Assembly (NCBI GenBank): GCA_011033025.1
Contig: WFMF01000154.1
Coordinates: forward strand, 124,001 to 188,000
Direction of reading: 5' to 3'
DNA from: Beroe forskalii
Lineage: Eukaryota; Ctenophora; Nuda; Beroida; Beroidae
DNA length: 64,000 bases
Position 1 is the first letter of the stretch. Each line of letters opens with the position of its first letter. Below, piece by piece: positions 3,731 through 41,220 of this stretch. Made by a program: the position numbers and the translations under genes. The notes below the pieces were generated by a model. The model had not been told where the DNA came from and did no database searches. It worked only from the letters and a program-made list of their open reading frames with translations.

Positions 3731-6700
3731 ATGTCAAAGAAAGATAAGAACTTATCCCTTGATAATATCTCATACGAAAACGGAGATGGACTGTCCGAGG
3801 TTTGTCATGTTGTTTAGATGTACTCCAGGGGAAGTTTTTAAATGTTGATTGTATATATTCTAACACATAATTACTATCGAAAGCCAATAACACCCTCCTC
3901 AATCCCCTCCATTATAGCTGCTATTCAAAATTAAACGCAATCACTCTGCTCCCCTGACAGTGTAAAGCTAAACGCAATCACTCCCCCTTCAGCGGATTGC
4001 TGAATGTAATCACTCCCCCTACAGCAGATTGCTGAATGTAATCACTCCCCCTTCAGCAGATTACCCAATGTAATCACTCCCCCTACAGCAGATTGCTGAA
4101 TGTAATCACTCCCCCTACAGCAGATTGCTGAATGTAATCACTCCCCCTACAGCGGATTGCTGAATGTAATCACTCCCCCTACAGCAGATTGCTAAATGTA
4201 ATCAGACTAAATGTACTCCCCCTACAGCAGATTGCTGAATGTAATCACTCCCCCTACAGCAGATTGCTGAATGTAATCACTCCCCCTACAGCAGATTGCT
4301 GAATGTAATCACTCCCCCTACAGCAGATTGCTGAATGTAATCACTCCCCCTACAGCAGATTGCTAAATGTAATCACTCCCCCTACAGCAGATTGCTAAAT
4401 GTAATCACTCCCCCTACAGCAGATTGCTGAATGTAATCACTCCCCCTACAGCGGATTGCTAAATGTAATCACTCCCCCTACAGCAGATTGCTGAATGTAA
4501 TCACTCCCCCTACAGCGGATTGCTAAATGTAATCACTTCCTCTACAGCGGGTTGCTAAATGTAATCACTCCCCCTACAGCAGATAGCTAAACGTAATCAC
4601 TCCCCCTACAGCAGATTGCTGAATGTAATCACTCTCCCTACAGCGAATTGCTAAATGTAATCACTCCCCCTACAGCGAATTGCTAAATGTAATCTGAACG
4701 TAATCCTCCCCTACAGCAGATTGCTAAATGTAATCACTCCCCCTACAGCGGATTGCTAAATGTAATCACTCCCCCTTCAGCGGATTGCTAAATGTAATCA
4801 CTCCCCCTTCAGCGGATTGCTAAATGTAATCACTATCTCTTTGCAGCGGATAGCTAAGCTGATTGCAGCTCCAGGCAGTCTGTCTACTGAGGGCCATGAC
4901 AAAGCCCCCTCAACAACTTCGGCAAGCGGGAAGGGGAAGGGAGTGCGACCCAACAACGACTTCTGTAACTACTGCAGTGAGGGAGGACCGTTGATCTGCT
5001 GCGAGAAGTGCCCTGCCGCCTACCACTACCACTGCTGGTACGTGTTTCTGTGGTGGAAGTGCTGTGTTTCTGTGAACTTGGAAGTGCTGTGTTTCTGTGG
5101 TGAGAGTGCTGTGTTTCTGTGGTGGAAGTGCTGTGTTTCTGTGGTAGAAGTGCTGTGTTTCTGTGGCAGAAGTGCTGTGTTTCTGTGGCGGAAGTGCTGT
5201 GTTTCTGTGGCGGAAGTGATGTGTTTCTGTGGTGGAAGTGCTGTATTTCTGTGGTGGAAGTGCTGTGTTTCTGTGGTGGAAGTGCTGTGTTTATGTGGGT
5301 GAAATGCTGGGTTTCTGTGGTGGAAGTGCTGTGTTTCTGTGGTGGAAGTGCTGTGTTTCTGTGGTGAGAGTGCTGTGTTTCTGTGGTAGAAGTGCTGTGT
5401 TTCTGTGGTGAGCGTGCTGTGTTTCTGTGGCGAGGTGATGTGTTTCTGTGGTGTAAGTGCTGTGTTTCTGTGGTGGAAGTGCTTTGTTTCTGTGGTGGAA
5501 GTGCTGTGTTTCTGTGGTGGAAGTGCTTTGTTTCTGTGGTGGAAGTGCTGTGTTTCTGTGTTGGAATTGCTGTGTTTCTGTGGTGGAAGTGCTGTGTTTC
5601 TGTGGTGGAAGTGCTGTGTTTCTGTGGTGGAAGTGCTGTTTTTCTGTGGGGGAAGTGCTGTATTTCTGAGGTGGAAGTGATGTGTTTCTGTGGCGAAGTG
5701 ATGTGTTTCTGTGGTGGAAGTGCTGTTTGTTTTACTGATTAATATTTATATGATATGTATGATTCGTTACCACTCTGCATTTAGGAATTTTATACTGATA
5801 CAATTTATACGATGTATACCGTATACATAGCAATTAACAATATGAAATTAGCAATATGAAATATTTTTCTCCCTCGTATAAACTCATGCGAACTCCTAAC
5901 TCTGTGGGCGTGGTCTCCTTTGACTGTCTGCGTCCGTGTGTCTACCTGCACGATGCATCGAATTGCGTTCAACCTCCGAAATCGCTGGTTGGCTATTTCC
6001 TTTTGTCTTCTTTGTTCTACTGAAATTTCGTCCGCTGTGCCCTATAAAATCCGTCGGATGGCTTCCCAAAACTCACATACTGACCTTGTTATGTAATTTT
6101 GTACTTCTATTCTACCTTGTATTGCATTTCAGGCAAACCAGTCTTCAGAAAGTTAAAAATAACCTTCCAAAAATCAAAACTCTTAATTAATCTTATAGCC
6201 GCAACGACCAAAGGAATTGTCCTTCTAAGGAAATCTTTAATTAGATCGCCGTAAATTACGCAATGATGTTCAAGGAAATTTGAGTTTTTGTAACGAGCAA
6301 GTTATAGTCAAGAAGTCTTTTTTCTGTTAGATTTACAGATCAGATGACAATAATCACGTAACTATTTCAGCGAGCCCCCTCTAGACCCGAACAACCTGCC
6401 GTCGGAGGAGTGGTTGTGTAACAGCTGCATGCCCCCAAAACCCTTCCCTATCACTGTGAGTACTGTTCAATTGTTATTTTAATCTACAATGTGTTCTACT
6501 GAAATTTCGTCCGCTGTGCCCTATAAAATTGTACATTATAATTATACATTACTTTTCAGTCTTGTTATACGGTTTGTCCCAAAACGCTTAATTCATCATA
6601 ATATTATTTACACTATGTTATAGCTGCCCCAAAAAATCAATTCTTAATTAATCTTTTTAGCCGCAACAACCAAAGGAAGTTAAATTCATAAAATCTTTAA

Positions 6701-9700
6701 TTTCGCCGTAAATTACGCAGTGATGTTCAACCTTTTGAAGGTATTAATGTAACGATAAATTATAGTCTAGACACCCTTTTTAATTTAGACAATACAAGAT
6801 CAGATGACACTAATCACGTAACTTTAGATTTTTTGACCCAACAAACCCGTTAGTATTTGAGGAGTGGTTGTGTAACAGCTGCATGCCTGTACAAACTATC
6901 CCTATCCAGTACTGTTTAGGTGAAGCACCTCTAATACAATGTAGTGTACTACATTATACATTGTTTACGCTCGTTGTACCAGTATACGCAATCCATCATA
7001 CATTATGAACACTATGTTAGTATATGCCCTTACAAGTTCATGACGTGTGCATAATGATAAGAACACCTTTTGAATGTATTTTGAATGTATACATTGAATA
7101 TGTACAGTGAGCACCACTGCTACTATTTGAACAGCTCGGTACACTGTGTGTTAATACACACGGTACACTACCAATACATTAATAAATTTGTATTGAAACA
7201 GTACACTGTACACACAATACATGTACGTAGGTATGTGCTCTGTACACACAATACATGTACGTAGGTATATGCTCTGTACAGCTGTGTTAATAAACAGATC
7301 GGTGTCTTGTCCGTGTAACTCCCAGTGTACTAAGCTTACTAATAGTTTACACACACACAGAGTACAGTTTATAACGTGATACTCTAGAACTTTACTGATC
7401 AAGTATATGAGAGCTTCATGTCACCATGACAACCTTCCTCTTTGGCGTTTGTGTGTGTGTCCTTCGGAATTTGACTTACGTGAGACATGAGTGTGTAGTG
7501 TGTGTATGTATACAATATATGCTACACAGTAAGTATATGCTACACAGTAAGTACACACTGCTACACAGTAAGTACACACTGCTACACAGTAAGTACGCAC
7601 TGCTACACAGTAAGTACACACACGATGGTAAGTAGTATGCACTTGTACACAGAGCTACTTGCATCAAACATACCCACACTATGCATAGTGCATACCAATA
7701 CATTGCTATATTTATATAAACTATTTGTGACGAAGTTACACGCACATGATATGTTACTGAGCAATACACGCTTTAGTGTGTACTTTCTGCGAGCGTGCTT
7801 TTTGATTAGCTGTGCAATGTGCAGGTGGTTCGTGTATTTTTATTTACAAATCACAGAACAGAAGAGCTTTAAACTGATCAGATCAGGTTTTCAGTTCTAG
7901 TTCGCACATTCGCACAATTTGTATTTAGATGGGCCCAAGTTGGTTGGTTACACTCAGTACACTTTTCACTGTGTGTACACTGCACATGTTGATGTGTATT
8001 TATTGGATGCAATTTCTAGTTTATTCAATTTGTCACAAGATGACATGTTGTCACTTGATGCTGTTATTTTGGAGAATAATAGAATATCTGAGTTTTTGCA
8101 TGATCTCCTTACTCACAGATCATATTATAAACAAGTCTACACTACTCATATTATTATGCACACTCTTCTTTTGCACCGTATACACAAGCATTATGTATAC
8201 ACAAGCATAATGTATACATAATGCTCAGTACACTCTTGCTCGCATTGCTCAGTACACTACCAATACACTTGCTCGAATTGCTCAGTACACTACCAATACA
8301 CTTGATCACATTGCTCAGTACACACACTACCAATACACTTGCTCGAATTGCTCCGTACACTACCAATACACTTGATCACATTGCTCAGTACACTACCAAT
8401 ACACTTGCTCGCATTGCTCAGTACACTCCCAATACACTTGCTCACTCATATTGCTTAGTACACACGCACTCAGTTTCGTACCGTGTACATACGCACAGAC
8501 ACAGCCATTATTCAAACAGACTCACAACACACCCACACGCCCACATCTGGAATGTACAATAGTGCTAATGGAATGTTGTGTACACATTAGCCACTCTAAT
8601 TTGTACTACTAATAGGTATACCTCTGTGTGTGTGTTTGTGTGTGGGTGTGTGTGTGTACACTAACCAGTGTCCGATGTTGCTCGTATATAATAATGATGA
8701 AATGTATGTACACACAGTTCAACACGGCGCTGTATGTACATTGTACACTTTATATGTGTGCGTGTGTGTGTAAACTTAAATTACACGAATATACACACGA
8801 TTGTATTGTGTAGTATGGAAATCCCCCTGCATTTCGCCAAGCACTCTGTTACACACATTGAGAAGAGATGTATGTGATTCTGTCTTTGCGATTGTGCACG
8901 TGACCGAGTGTACTGACGTGTACTGACACGTGTTTAGCAATGTTATTACATACTGTACAACATGACCCAACGTTGCAGAATAGCCAAAATTAGCGGCCAA
9001 CCAACAACCAAGGTGTAATTCAATATCTCACATTCCCTAATTATTGCGTAGGTGTGTAGAATATGAAGTTTGTGTGTATGTATGTATGTATGTGGGTGTT
9101 TTAACTGCAAGTTTTGGTGTATTTGTTGCATACGGTTGTGTAAAGTTTACACATTAGTTTTGTTGGTAGGAATGCCCATTGCCCGTGTAGATGGAATAAG
9201 TTTTGCATACCCATTACCCATGTGTATGTGTGTGTATGTTCGGTGTAAAACAGTATTATATTTATCATGTGATTGTCCAGCATTTCTGGTGTTTGTGTGC
9301 CGTAGGTTCTATAATCGTACGATTTATTACGTTATTCAAGGCACAAATGTATACTTCGTCATTATGAAATGTGATATGTGATGTAATACAACCTTTCGTA
9401 ATGAAGGACTAGTTGGGTCCATCCCATATTAACTGTCTGCCGTTATGGATTGCTATGGCAATCTTCGTGGTTTTTCAACTTATGAAATCGATTTTTGTGC
9501 AATTTCCGTCCTTGTATCTTGCAATGAAATATCTACATAAATGTTTTAATTGGCTTGTTTATTCATAAGTACATCTCATTATAATCACCAATCATTTTGG
9601 CAGTCGTCTCAAGTTCAATTACGTACTCTGGATCATTAATTTGTTTGAAAAATGCGTGTTTACATTTTGCCGCCGAATTAAAGCAAAAATTGTCAGCAAA

Positions 9701-20845: not shown

Positions 20846-20849
20846 AACT

Positions 20850-22565
20850 TACAGCTAATTCCAGGGCTCTATCCCTATAACTAAATTACAGCTAATTTCA
20901 CTGCTCTATCCCCTGCCTTACTTACAGCTTATTTCACTGCTCTATCTCTAACTAACTTACAGCTTATTTCACTGCTCTATCCCCTGCCTAATTTCACTGC
21001 TCTATCCCCTGCATGACTTACAGCTTATTTCACTGCTCTATCCCCTGCATGACTTACAGCTTATTTCACTGCTCTATACCCAGCCTGACTTACAGCTTAT
21101 TTCACTGCTCTATACCCTGCCTGACTTACAGCTAATTTCACTGCTCTATACCCTGCCTGACTTACAGCTAATTTCACTGCTCTATCCCCTGCCTGACTTA
21201 CAGCTAATTTCACTGCTCTATACCCTGCCTGACTTACAGCTTATTTCACTGCTCTATACCCTGCCTGACTTACAGCTAATTTCAGTGCTCTATACCCAGC
21301 CTGACTTACAGCTTATTTCACTGCTCTATACCCTGCCTGACTTACAGCTAATTTCACTGCTCTATACCCTGCCTGACTTACAGCTAATTTCACTGCTTTA
21401 TCCCCTGCCTGACTTACAGCTTATTTCGCTGCTCTATACCCTGCCTGACTTACAGCTAATTTCACTGCTCTATTCCCTGCCTGACTTACCTGACTGCTCT
21501 ATGCCCTGCCTGACTTATTTAATTTCACTGCTTTATCCCTGCCTGACAGCTTATTTAACTTACCCTGCCTGACTTACAGCTAATTTCACTGCTCTATTCC
21601 TGCCTGACTTACGCTTAATTTCACTGCTCTATACCCTGCCTGACTTACAGAGCTCATTTCACCTGCCTAACTTGCTCTATACCCTACTAACTAACTTGCT
21701 AATTTCACTGCTCTATCCTGCCTGACTTACAGCTAATTTCTATACCCTGCCTGACTTATTTCACTTACAGTTTTTTATTTCATTTCACTGCTCTATACCC
21801 TGCCTGACTTACAGCTAATTTCACTGCTCTATACCCCGCCTGACTTACAGCTAATTTACTGCTTTATCCCCTGCTGCTCTATACCGCCTGACTTACAGCT
21901 AATTTCACTGCTCTATTCCTGCCTGACTTACAGCTAATTTCACTGCTCTATCCCCTGCCTGACTTACAGCTAATTTCACTGCTCTATACCCTGCCTGACT
22001 TACAGCTTATTTCACTGCTCTATACCCTGCCTGACTTACAGCTAATTTCACTGCTCTATCCCCTGCCTGACTTACAGCTAATTTCACTGCTCTATACCCT
22101 GCCTTACTTACAGCTAATTTCACTGCTCTATACCCAGCCTGACTTACTGCTAATTTCACTGCTCTATACCCTGCCTGACTTACAGCTAATTTCACTGCTC
22201 TATACCCTGTCTAACTTACAGCTAATTTCACTGCTCTATCCTCTTACTAACTTACAGCTAATTTCACTGCTCTATACCCTGCCTGACTTACTGCTAATTT
22301 CACTGCTCTATACCCTGCCTGACTTACTGCTAATTTCACTGCTCTATACCCTGCCTGACTTACTGCTAATTTCACTGCTCTATACCCTGCCTGACTTACA
22401 GCTAATTTCACTGCTCTATACCCTGTCTAACTTACAGCTAATTTCACTGCTCTATCCTCTTACTAACTTACAGCTAATTTCACTGCTCTATACCCTGCCT
22501 GACTTACTGCTAATTTCACTGCTCTATCCCCTGCCTGACTTACTGCTAATTTCACTGCTCTCCCT
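20850..22565. repeat. 36-bp satellite, about 47 copies
   Basis: The unit is CTGCTCTATACCCTGCCTGA then CTTACAGCTAATTTCA. Copies are near-identical at 21050-21480 and 22130-22550, and scrambled or partly deleted at 21480-21900. Because 36 is a multiple of three, open frames on both strands repeat a 12-residue motif (LYTLPDLQLISL). I take these to be non-coding. Confidence 0.93.
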
Positions 22566-23416: not shown

Positions 23417-34406
<10,990 letters not shown>

Positions 34407-36542: not shown

Positions 36543-39305
36543 ACAGTGCTGTCATACTCATAGCAGGACACAGTGTCAGCAGCAGTGCTGCAGACACTGT
36601 CACAGCAATAGGGCACAGTGTCACGCAGGCGTGTGACACTGTGTCCTGCAATGCTGTGACACTGTGTCCTGCGATGCTGTGACACTGTGTCCTGCAGTGC
36701 TGTGACACTGTGTCCTGCGATGCAGTGACACTGTGTCCTGCAATGCTGTGACACAGGGTATTCGGTCATTTGGCCTAACTGGGCATCTGGCCTAACACTG
36801 GTTAGGGTCAGGGGAGAGAGATAAATTCAAAATCTCTTGAGTATTTCTTGAGTTTAATGCGTTAGGCCAAATGACCTAGAACCGTGACACAGTGTCCTGC
36901 AATGCTGTGACACTGTGTCCTGCAATGACACTGTGTCCTGCCGTGCTGTGACCCTGTTTCCCAGTGCTGTGACACTGACACTGTCCTGCAGTGCTGTGAC
37001 ACTGATTCAGTGTCCTGTAGTGCTGTGACACTGTGTCCTGCAGTGCTGTGACACTGTGTCCTGCAGTGCTGTGAGACTGTGTCCTGTAGTGCTGTGACAC
37101 AGTGTCTTGCAATGCTGTGACACTGTGTCCTGCAGTGCTGTGACACTGTGTCCTGCAATGCTGTGACACTGTGTCCTGCAATGCTGTGACACTGTTTCCT
37201 GCAGTGACACTGTGTCCTGCCGTGCTGTGACCCTGTTTCCCAGTGCTGTGACACTGACACTGTCCTGCAGTGCTGTGACACTGATTCAGTGTCCTGTTGT
37301 GCTGTGACACTGTGTCCTGCAGTGCTGTGACACTGTGTCCTGCAGTGCTGTGACACTGTGTCCTGCAGTGCTGTGCCACTGTGTCCTGCAGTGCTGTGAC
37401 GCTGTGTCCTGCAGTGCTGTGACACTGTGTCCTGCAATGCTGTGACACTGTCCTGCAATGCTGTGACACTGTGTCCTGCAATGCTGTGACACTGTTTCCT
37501 GCAGTGACACTGTGTCCTGCCGTGCTGTGACCCTGTTTCCCAGTGCTGTGACACTGACACTGTCCTGCAGTGCTGTGACACTGATTCAGTGTTCTGTAGT
37601 GCTGTGACACTGTGTCCTGCAGTGCTGTGACACTGTGTCCTGCAGTGCTGTGAGACTGTGTCCTGTAGTGCTGTGAAACAGTGTCTTGCAATGCTGTGAC
37701 ACTGTGTCCTGCAGTGCTGTGACACTGTGTCCTGCAATGCTGTGACACTGTGTCCTGCAATGCTGTGACACTGTTTCCTGCAATCCTGCAGTGACACTGT
37801 GTCCTGCCGTGCTGTGACCCTGTTTCCCAGTGCTGTGACACTGACACTGTCCTGCAGTGCTGTGACACTGATTCAGTGTCCTGTAGTGCTGTGACACTGT
37901 GTCCTGCAGTGCTGTGACACTGTGTCCTGCAGTGCTGTGACACTGTGTCCTGCAGTGCTGTGCCACTGTGTCCTGCAGTGCTGTGACGCTGTGTCCTGCA
38001 GTGCTGTGACACTGTGTCCTGCAATGCTGTGCCACTGTGTCCTGCAGTGCTGTGACACTGTGTCCTGCGATGCAGTGACACTGTGTCCTGCAATGTTGTG
38101 ACAGTGTGACACAGTGTCCTGCAATGCTGTGACACTGTGTCCTGCAATGCTGTGACACTGTTTCCTGCAGTGACACTGTGTCCTGCCGTGCTGTGACCCT
38201 GTTTCCCAGTGCTGTGACACTGACACTGTCCTGCAGTGCTGTGACACTGATTCAGTGTCCTGTAGTGCTGTGACACTGTGTCCTGCAGTGCTGTGACACT
38301 GTGTTCTGCAGTACTGTGACGCTGTGTCCTGCAGTGCTGTGACACTGTGTCCTGCAATGCTGTGACACTGTGTCCTGCAGTGCTGTGACACTGTGTCTTC
38401 CAGTGCTGTGACACTGTGTCCCAGTGCTGTGACACTGTTTCCCAGTGCTGTGATACTGTGTCCCAGTGCTGTGACACTGTGTCCTCCACTGCTGTGACAC
38501 TGTGTTCCAGTGCTGTAACACTGTGTCCAAGTGCTGTGACACTGTGTCCTGCAGTGCTGTGACACTGTGTCCCAGTGCTGTGAAACTGTGTCCCAGTGCT
38601 GTGGCACTATGTCCTCCAGAGCTGTGACACTGTGTCCCAGTGCTGTGACACTGTGTCCTGCAGTGCTGTGACACTGTGCCCTGCAGTGCTGTGACACTGT
38701 GTCTGCAGTGCTGTGACACTGTGTCCTGCAGTGCTGTGACACTGTGTCCTGCAGTGCTGTGACACTGTGTCCCAGTGCTGTGACACTGTGTCCTGCAGTG
38801 CTGTGACACTGTGTCCTGCAGTGCTGTGACACTGTGTCCTGCAGTGCTGTGACACTGTGTCCTGCAGTGCTGTGACACTGTGTCCTGCAGTGCTGTGACA
38901 CTGTGTCCTGCAGTGCTGTGACACTGTGTCCTGCAGTGCTGTGACACTGTGTCCTGCAGTGCTGTGACACTGTGTCCTGCAGTGCTGTGACACTGTGTCC
39001 TGCAGTGCTGTGACACTGTGTCCTGCAGTGCTGTGACACTGTGTCCTGCAGTGCTGTGACACTGTGTCCTGCAGTGCTGTGACACTGTGTCCTGCAGTGC
39101 TGTGACACTGTGTCCTGCAGTGCTGTGACACTGTGTCCTGCAGTGCTGTGACACTGTGTCCTGCAGTGCTGTGACACTGTGTCCTGCAGTGCTGTGACAC
39201 TGTGTCCTGCAGTGCTGTGACACTGTGTCCTGCAGTGCTGTGACACTGTGTCCTGCAGTGCTGTGACACTGTGTTCTGCAGTGCTGTGACACTGTGCCCT
39301 ACAGT
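36543..39305. repeat. 23-bp satellite array (left arm of an inverted pair), over 100 copies
   Basis: The unit is CTGTGACACTGTGTCCTGCA plus GTG. At 36880-38400 it is organised in higher-order blocks of about 280-380 bp, each marked by GCCGTGCTGTGACCCTGTTT then CCCAGTGCTGTGACACTGAC. At 38400-38650 21-bp units with CCCAG occur. From about 38765 to 39270 the 23-mers are essentially identical. Minus-strand frames of up to 537 codons (repeating HSVTALQDTVSQHCRTQC) stay open in all three phases and are artefacts. Confidence 0.95.
36764..36876. mobile_element. 113-bp MITE-like insertion inside the 23-bp array
   Basis: Perfect 16-bp inverted ends, GGTCATTTGGCCTAAC (36764-36779) and GTTAGGCCAAATGACC (36861-36876), enclose unrelated sequence that interrupts the array. 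There is no coding capacity. Confidence 0.85.
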
Positions 39306-39309
39306 GCTT

Positions 39310-39925
39310 ACAGTTACCGTACTCTAACCAGAGCTGTCTTGGCTGTTCGGCGTTAGTATCTGGTTAGATGAAGTGCTGACCACATGCTGTGTCCCTGTTT
39401 GCTCGTGCACACTTTACATTACGCAAAATAAGGATCCGTAAGATGGAGTAAATATGCAGTGCTGTGACACTGGGTCCCACTTAACCGTTCCCTGAGAAAG
39501 CGCCGCGCGACGATAACATGGGAATACGTGTTTCGACGGGCGATGTCCGTCCCTTTCTTCTGACTTGTTGTTGACTTCGCCGAAGGCGCAAAGTGACGTC
39601 CAAATGTGGAACGTTGCGTCGCGCGCGCGAGGGTAACATCCTACGAATACGTGTTTAGCATCACTAAGACAGTGGAATGGGCACTGCACAGCTCGACGGA
39701 CGTCCAAATGTGGAACGTTGCGCCGCGCGCGCTAGTGTAGGGTAACTTGACGGACGTTGCCCCGTCTATTTCTTCTGACTGGATGGCTAGGTTGCAAAGT
39801 GACGTCCAAATGTGGAACGTTGCGCCGCGCGCGAGGGTTGTCTGACGTCGTCAGACCCATTATCTAAAATTTTAACGCCTGACAACGCGAGGGTAGGGTA
39901 ACATCCTACGAAGGGTAACATCCTA
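39310..39925. repeat. Spacer between inverted arrays with its own GC-rich repeats
   Basis: GACGTCCAAATGTGGAACGT then TGCGYCGCGCGCG occurs three times (about 39594, 39701, 39803). GGGTAACATCCTACGA occurs three times. The CpG-rich character contrasts with the surroundings. No gene is seen. Confidence 0.85.
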
Positions 39926-41180
39926 CGATGGCACAGCACTTGGACACAATGTCACAGCACAAGGACAAATTGTCACAGCATTAGAACACAGTGTCACAGC
40001 GCTAGGACACATTCTCAAAGTACTGGGACACAGTTTCACAGCACTGGGACACAGTGTCACAACACTGGCACACTGTGTCCAGCACTGGGACACAGTGTCA
40101 CAGCACTGGGACACAGTGTCACAGCACTGGGGCACAGTGTCACAGCACTGGGACACAGTGTCACAGCACTGGGACACAGTGTCACAGCACTGGGACACAG
40201 TGTCACAGCACTGGGACACAGTGTCACCAGTCACAGCACTGGGACACAGTGTCACAGCACTGGGACACAGTGTCACAGCACTGGGACACAGTGTCACAGC
40301 ACTGGGACACAGTGTCACAGCACTGGGACACAGTGTCACAGCACTGGGACACAGTGTCACAGCACTGGGTCACAGTGTCACAGCACTGGGACACAGTGTC
40401 ACAGCACTGGGACACAGTGTCACAGCACTGAGATACAGTGTCATAGTGTCACAGCACTGGGACACAGTGTCACAGCACTGGGACACAGTGTCACAGCACT
40501 GGGACACAGTGTCACAGCACTGGGACACAGTGTCACAGCACTGGGACACAGTGTCACAGCACTGGGACACAGTGTCACAGCACTGCAGGACACAGTGTCA
40601 CAGCACTGGAACACAGCACTAGGAACAGTGTCACAGCAGTCAGCACTGGAACACAGTGTCACAGTACTGGGACACAGTGTTACAGCACTGGAAGACAGTG
40701 TCACAGCACTGTGACACAGTGTTACAGCACTGGAACAGTGTCACAGCACTGCAGGACACAATTTCACAGCACTGGGACACAGTGTCACAGCACTGGGGGA
40801 CAGTGTCACAGTTCTAGGGGACAGTGTCACAGTACTAGGACACAGTGTCACAGCACTGGGACACAGAGTTACGGCACTGGGGGACAGTGTCACAGTAGTA
40901 GGACACAGTGTCACGAGCACTATGGCACAGTGTCACAGCACTGGGACACAGTGTCACAGCACTGGGACACAGTGTCACTGCACTGGGACACAGTGCCATA
41001 GCACTGGGATACACTGTCACAGCACTGGTATACAGTGTCACAGCACTGGGACACAGTATCACAGCACTGGGACACAGCGTCACAGCACTGGAACACAGTG
41101 TCACAGCACTGGAACACAGTGTCACAGCACTGGAACACAGTGTCACAGCACTGGAACACAGTGTCACAGCTTTGGAACAC
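39926..41180. repeat. 21-bp satellite array (right arm of an inverted pair), about 58 copies
   Basis: The unit is CAGCACTGGGACACAGTGTC plus A. This is the reverse complement of the 21-bp variant of the left array, so the two arrays face each other. Homogeneous copies lie at 40080-40600; degenerate ones at both ends. Open frames on both strands are artefacts. Confidence 0.95.
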
Positions 41181-41220
41181 AGCCGAAGGCGAGGGGGGCA
41201 GACGATGTCTGACAATGAGA

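Follow-up and report, generated by a model that had tools for sequence, protein, structure and literature searches.

A 32-bp minisatellite with 27 decoy acceptors upstream of PHF12 exon 2 in Beroe forskalii is one of a class of splice-border arrays in this genome

How the spliceosome chooses among near-identical competing sites has usually been studied with engineered minigenes. Intron 1 of PHF12 in Beroe forskalii poses the same question in a resident gene. The window, a stretch of 64,000 nt (C197:124001-188000, within a 216-Mb assembly; positions below refer to the window unless a contig is named), carries PHF12 on the plus strand, from about 3.7 to 12.6 kb. A first-pass annotation had proposed that a minisatellite, grown from the 3′ splice site of exon 2, leaves about 27 decoy acceptors ahead of the real one. 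How might such an array arise, and how could the gene still be spliced?

The exons bordering the array were placed by homology, all on the plus strand. The coding part of exon 1 (MSKKDKNLSLDNISYENGDGLSE; 3731 to 3799), assigned from human PHF12, ends at the donor GAG|GTTTGT; exon 2 (4847 to 5037; 191 nt) carries the first part of PHD finger 1, and exon 3 (6371 to 6455) carries the rest. When joined, exons 1 to 3 align with human PHF12 (8bpb_C; query 16-106 on chain 15-102; E = 4.6e-23), in line with the exon model originally proposed, and Pfam finds a PHD finger in the joined piece (E = 1.4e-10). Because the joined exons align in this way, homology supports both splice borders of exon 2, and the frame is intact across the true junction at 4846|4847. 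The first codons of exon 2 are in register with human PHF12 (GLSERIAKLIAAP versus GLMEQIQALLAPP), which favors an exon border older than the array. Beyond exon 3, the gene was placed by eye from open frames, with the later exons left unjoined. De novo exon calling via codon bias was abandoned after it gave no more than 13 exons in 264 kb.

Intron 1 is 1,047 nt long, and 889 of these belong to the 32-bp minisatellite (3939 to 4827, plus strand, units split by hand; Tandem Repeats Finder places the array at 3976 to 4834). In a typical unit, TGCTRAA, which resembles a branch site, is followed by a C-rich tract, CAG, and the exon-start-like C(A/G)GATTGCT. CAGs in register number exactly 27 decoys, or 28 with the true CAG at 4844 to 4846; the decoys span 3958 to 4812, with the first base after the AG running from 3961 to 4813, and are spaced by 32 nt except at three places, where the spacing is 43, 41, and 34 nt. 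A last partial unit (4828 to 4857, plus strand) crosses the true acceptor into the first 11 bases of the exon. Thus, the array is real, its decoy count is as first estimated, and it does end at the real acceptor. Recursive splicing was rejected, since the unit is without AG|GT.

The likeness of the units to the exon start is best seen in this fixed register. The first 11 exon bases are identical to the corresponding decoy bases at 8 to 10 positions for 26 of the 27 decoys, with 6 at the odd one (4057), while the best of 1,732 control YAG sites elsewhere in the window reaches 7 of the 11. The match also weakens the farther a unit lies from the exon (rho = −0.62, a value found in 0 of 5,000 permutations; −0.61 without the first unit). 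When 25 exon bases were aligned locally to the unit without a fixed register, 36 of 5,000 random stretches did as well or better; the strength of the likeness is in the fixed register, not in sliding alignment.

Splice and branch sites were scored with generic consensus weights that are not fitted to this species. By these weights, the true acceptor scores 6.1 versus 1.9 to 4.6 for the decoys and beats all 27, owing to a T-rich tract where the tracts of the decoys are C-rich. The choice of site in PHF12 is therefore probably easy. Scored as an acceptor cassette, again by generic weights, the PHF12 unit reaches 9.4, the highest value among 34 arrays on both strands of 264 kb (the next scores 8.4), and shuffled versions reach it in 4 of 200 cases. 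For 23 of the 27 decoys the best branch-site-like motif is TGCTAAA or TGCTGAA, usually 22 nt upstream of the exon-side edge of the AG. The best such heptamer for the true acceptor, TGCTAAA at 4818 to 4824 (plus strand), lies inside the last full unit and would put the branch A 24 nt upstream of exon 2. A branch-site-like GCTAA lies in the stretch of the unit equivalent to the start of the exon (exon, GATAGCTAAGC; unit, GATTGCTAAAT), so that duplication would turn an exon start into the branch site of the next copy.

What would use of the decoys do? When exon 1 is joined to each in turn, an in-frame stop follows in 26 of 27 cases; counting every AG in the tested stretch, 46 of 47 lead to stops, and skipping of exon 2 (191 nt, 2 mod 3) likewise gives a stop. 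The expectation that many misuses of units of 32 nt, being 2 mod 3, would shift the frame needs a correction for the decoy at 4781, which lies 66 nt, or two units, upstream and stays open and in frame because the last spacing is 34 nt, adding 22 residues (RIAKCNHSPFSGLLNVITISLQ). Rare use of decoys would mostly yield mRNAs with premature stops.

Exon 2 is flanked by a minisatellite on its donor side as well, a 22-bp unit present 31 times (5042 to 5726, plus strand) that starts at position +5 of the intron 2 donor. This array has no significant likeness to the end of exon 2 (280 of 3,000 random stretches align as well), and we rejected it as a copy of the exon end, or donor-side mirage; it merely abuts the donor. 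Three GTs within it, at 5100, 5364, and 5408, score 3.55 versus 3.50 for the true donor by generic weights. Farther downstream, exon 3 and flanking intron have a tandem copy at 6642 to 6916 (plus strand; 225 of 302 aligned columns identical), which is decayed and has lost both the acceptor TTTCAG and the donor GTGAGT.

Arrays of the same class are found at other loci of this genome. The first-pass annotation had noted neither these, nor the donor-side minisatellite, nor the branch-site-like motif that most PHF12 units carry. When the PHF12 piece was used as a protein query, exons on four other contigs matched, and the surrounding stretches were fetched blind to repeats. The two in which repeats appeared were extended; C458 and C181 were left as fetched and so cannot count as array free. 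An NSD-like gene (L029 and L033 on C536; Pfam PHDvar_NSD, 3e-13) repeats its exon end, CCGCACATGTCTACACAG|GTAAATG, in 47 further copies, 44 of them with GT; with the first copy taken as the true donor, 41 score at least as high as it does, and 28 of the 47 are identical to it over 28 nt. In a BAZ-like gene (L031, L032, and L034 on C268; Pfam WSD, 8.7e-11), an acceptor array has 18 further copies with intact AG at the set cut-off, 16 of them at least as strong as the true site, and a CCCTAAC within the exon-derived part. The exon after this array matches WSD at 0.0071, below the curated cut-off, and the donor side has a 66-bp repeat in three copies, all without GT.

Two more genes carry such arrays. 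A GLI-like zinc finger gene on the minus strand of the same contig, outside the window (C197:91624-97153 and 89946-91377; 2gli, stretch 2-77, E = 4.8e-35; the artificial finger protein Aart ranks first owing to the number of its fingers), repeats one acceptor in 32 further copies. Every one of the 32 has an AG, scores at least as high as the true site, and leads to stops; the true acceptor is itself weak (−0.7, generic weights). The preceding intron holds 197 donor copies, 192 with GT; immediately upstream of the first, the reading frame is broken by 2 nt, perhaps through an assembly error. In a CAP-like gene (Pfam 6.4e-4, slightly short of its cut-off), six donor copies with intact GT form two blocks, and the frame breaks shortly upstream of the array. 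Given these breaks, the true donor is less certain for both the GLI-like donor array and the CAP-like array. Together with those in the kinesin genes described below, we count eleven splice-border arrays in nine genes, some of them judged by eye; the cases on C197 are a biased sample because they were found by inspecting arrays. In several of these arrays decoys score no lower than the true site (generic weights), and some are a cleaner test bed than PHF12.

The window and its contig have further arrays. One at 20847 to 22561, a 36-bp unit present 49 times, reads as an acceptor cassette, CTTACAG|CTAATTTCAC, with a score of 6.3 that 44 of 200 shuffles equal; no exon was identified at its ends. 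Related arrays on GACACAGTGTCACAGCACTGG are found at 36614 to 41182 of the window and at C197:226358-228988 and 257255-259026, in both orientations. A long open frame at 28584 to 30599 looks by eye like a Penelope-like retroelement, with no match in a Pfam search, and similar frames recur in C197.

How often arrays sit at splice borders was estimated from kinesin exons, of which a Pfam profile gave 120 matches; 15 short stretches with 60 matches were taken, chosen by the clustering of matches. A script called 53 acceptors and 47 donors; arrays with 2.5 or more copies contain 4 of these 100 borders, against an array cover of 2,107 of 24,594 non-coding bases (8.6%) in the same stretches. Arrays at splice borders are therefore tolerated, not preferred: they occur at about 4% of these kinesin borders and are not concentrated there, and the kinesin sample speaks against the idea that arrays prefer exon borders. 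All four arrays are on the acceptor side. Judged by eye, coding bases are plainly repeated in L039, a piece of the exon's beginning is repeated in L046 and in L049, and L047 is degenerate; the script mistook a decoy for the border in L039. At another acceptor (L040), a degenerate 15-bp pyrimidine repeat ends one base before the border and was not counted. Elsewhere, at C291:171201-174881, kinesin profile positions 221-264 and 263-302 are matched repeatedly on one strand, which suggests serial exon duplication.

Given the branch-site-like motif in the PHF12 unit, we compared seven acceptor arrays by their best branch-site scores, again with generic consensus weights: 7.2, 7.2, 6.7, 6.2, 5.6, 3.9, and 1.9. 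The search was limited to the sequence downstream of the previous decoy AG, except in L049, which had no such limit. Random scores have a median of 3.4 and a 90th percentile of 5.8; the weak values are those of the GLI-like array (3.9) and one kinesin array (1.9). The best motif lies at the exon-homologous offset in the PHF12, GLI-like, BAZ-like, and kinesin L039 arrays. This fits the idea that acceptor arrays may survive only where each unit brings its own branch site, for a small sample and a mild excess. A control on 49 ordinary kinesin acceptors outside arrays weakens this idea. Their median is 4.6, and 20 of the 49 reach at least 5.6, so the arrays are only mildly better; at least 6.2 is reached by 4 of the 7 arrays versus 7 of the 49.

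The PHF12 array belongs to a known kind, the splice-border minisatellites of amphioxus and of human CBS and ABCA7. In amphioxus, minisatellites termed mirages lie over intron-exon boundaries of Adh3 and the globins BflGb6 and BflGb9, and also of PGBD5 and TnC; they are found at either border, and many carry splice signals (PMC3087553, PMC3902484). As there, the PHF12 units span the exon-intron boundary, include exon bases, and carry an AG (the 27 CAGs) in an otherwise normal gene, and the mirages are reported not to disturb splicing (PMC3087553). The amphioxus case differs in scale: BflGb6 is described with 6 and 3 units of 150 to 160 bp in two haplotypes (PMC3087553, PMC3902484), whereas PHF12 has 27 decoys of 32 bp and the GLI-like gene up to about 190. 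In the intron 18 VNTR of human ABCA7, the 25-bp unit opens with the GT of the exon 18 donor, and retention of one unit shifts the frame, as many decoy misuses would in PHF12; the ABCA7 effects were shown in RNA (PMC5954066). This is a donor-side mirror image of PHF12, nearer to the donor arrays of the NSD-like and GLI-like genes. The 31-bp VNTR of human CBS, c.1444_1467+7, is polymorphic at 16 to 21 units and, by its name, spans the end of an exon and intron bases 1 to 7, again on the donor side, unlike PHF12 (PMC2630376). The tandem dual-specific splice sites of UBC also place splice sites at every unit boundary of a tandem repeat, but those units are coding ubiquitin monomers with AGGT sites used both ways, unlike the PHF12 array (PMC10809524). 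Among the matches listed in a literature search that left most subscription journals outside, no paper dealt with splice-border minisatellites in ctenophores.

How, then, did the PHF12 array come about? Growth from the 3′ splice site, as first proposed, is the most likely course, given that the array ends at the acceptor and has exon-start bases in register, and we consider an exon-first origin probable. A tandem duplication reaching from the 3′ end of intron 1 into the start of exon 2 would have seeded the minisatellite, which would then have grown through ordinary repeat turnover. Because the duplicated exon start bears the branch-site-like GCTAA, a typical unit would be a self-contained acceptor, with a putative branch site, a pyrimidine tract, and an AG; the exon-side copy would thus have kept its own branch site, and PHF12 would have stayed spliceable. 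The exon-proximal acceptor is probably used almost always, since its tract is T rich, those of the decoys are C rich, and it adjoins the exon body. The same process has probably acted at splice borders of other genes in the genome. The reverse order, in which an ordinary intronic minisatellite came first and converted the exon start, so that the acceptor in use is its last unit, seems unlikely. The last unit is indeed continuous with the array, the donor-side minisatellite reaches intron position +5 without exon likeness, and isoleucine is the only residue encoded by the 11 matching exon bases that is common with human PHF12, which leaves room for an array that overwrote the exon start. However, the exon matches human PHF12 in length and reading register, and sequence coding for a conserved domain is part of the repeated piece in the array of kinesin L039, the BAZ-like array, and the GLI-like acceptor array, so that this genome shows the exon-to-array direction at other loci.

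The array might instead be maintained as a regulator, with a sizeable share of transcripts using decoys, gaining stops, and being degraded, so that copy number sets PHF12 output. The stops that follow from nearly all decoys and from skipping of exon 2 fit this, and longer VNTRs in human ABCA7 accompany increased skipping of exon 19 and lower expression (PMC5954066). Against it, the true acceptor is clearly stronger than the decoys by generic weights, and retention of one unit in ABCA7 is reported at about 2%, independent of VNTR size (PMC5954066). Tuning of PHF12 output is thus possible but unsupported, and we rate its chances as low. An assembly artifact, affecting the copy number or the whole array, is more improbable still. 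Arrays are hard to assemble, this one is present at a single place in the assembly with no second haplotype seen, and the frame breaks beside the GLI-like donor and CAP-like arrays hint at local errors; yet the units vary by point changes and indels, their likeness to the border is graded, and similar arrays are present on several contigs. The exon-first origin remains the reading that we prefer.

The COX1 contig has AGA at conserved arginines and TGA in frame, its GC content is 17% over 10,000 bases, and ARAGORN finds no tRNA genes in 10,000 of its 13,339 bases. Ctenophore mitochondrial DNA uses code 4 (AGR for arginine and TGA for tryptophan) and is very AT rich, tRNA poor, and fast evolving. 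These features suggest a ctenophore, and we take the mitochondrial code of the contig to argue against a bilaterian, including a cephalochordate, source. What may be new is the number of such arrays in one probably non-bilaterian genome and, in some of them, the number of equal decoys.

As a more speculative and rather doubtful extension, this lineage might routinely expand splice borders, about one in 25 to 50 by the kinesin sample, into stacks of near-identical sites from which the spliceosome reliably uses the exon-proximal copy; units would persist only with their own branch site, often one that the exon start supplies, and the share of unproductive mRNA would depend on copy number in some genes. 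The arrays would extend splice-border minisatellites from chordates to a probably non-bilaterian animal. Within one genome they form a natural series of 6 to about 190 copies, at acceptors and donors, in PHF12, the GLI-like and NSD-like genes, and kinesins, all of which must be spliced correctly, and counts of junction reads there would allow a direct test of the rules of proximity, branch site, and exon definition.
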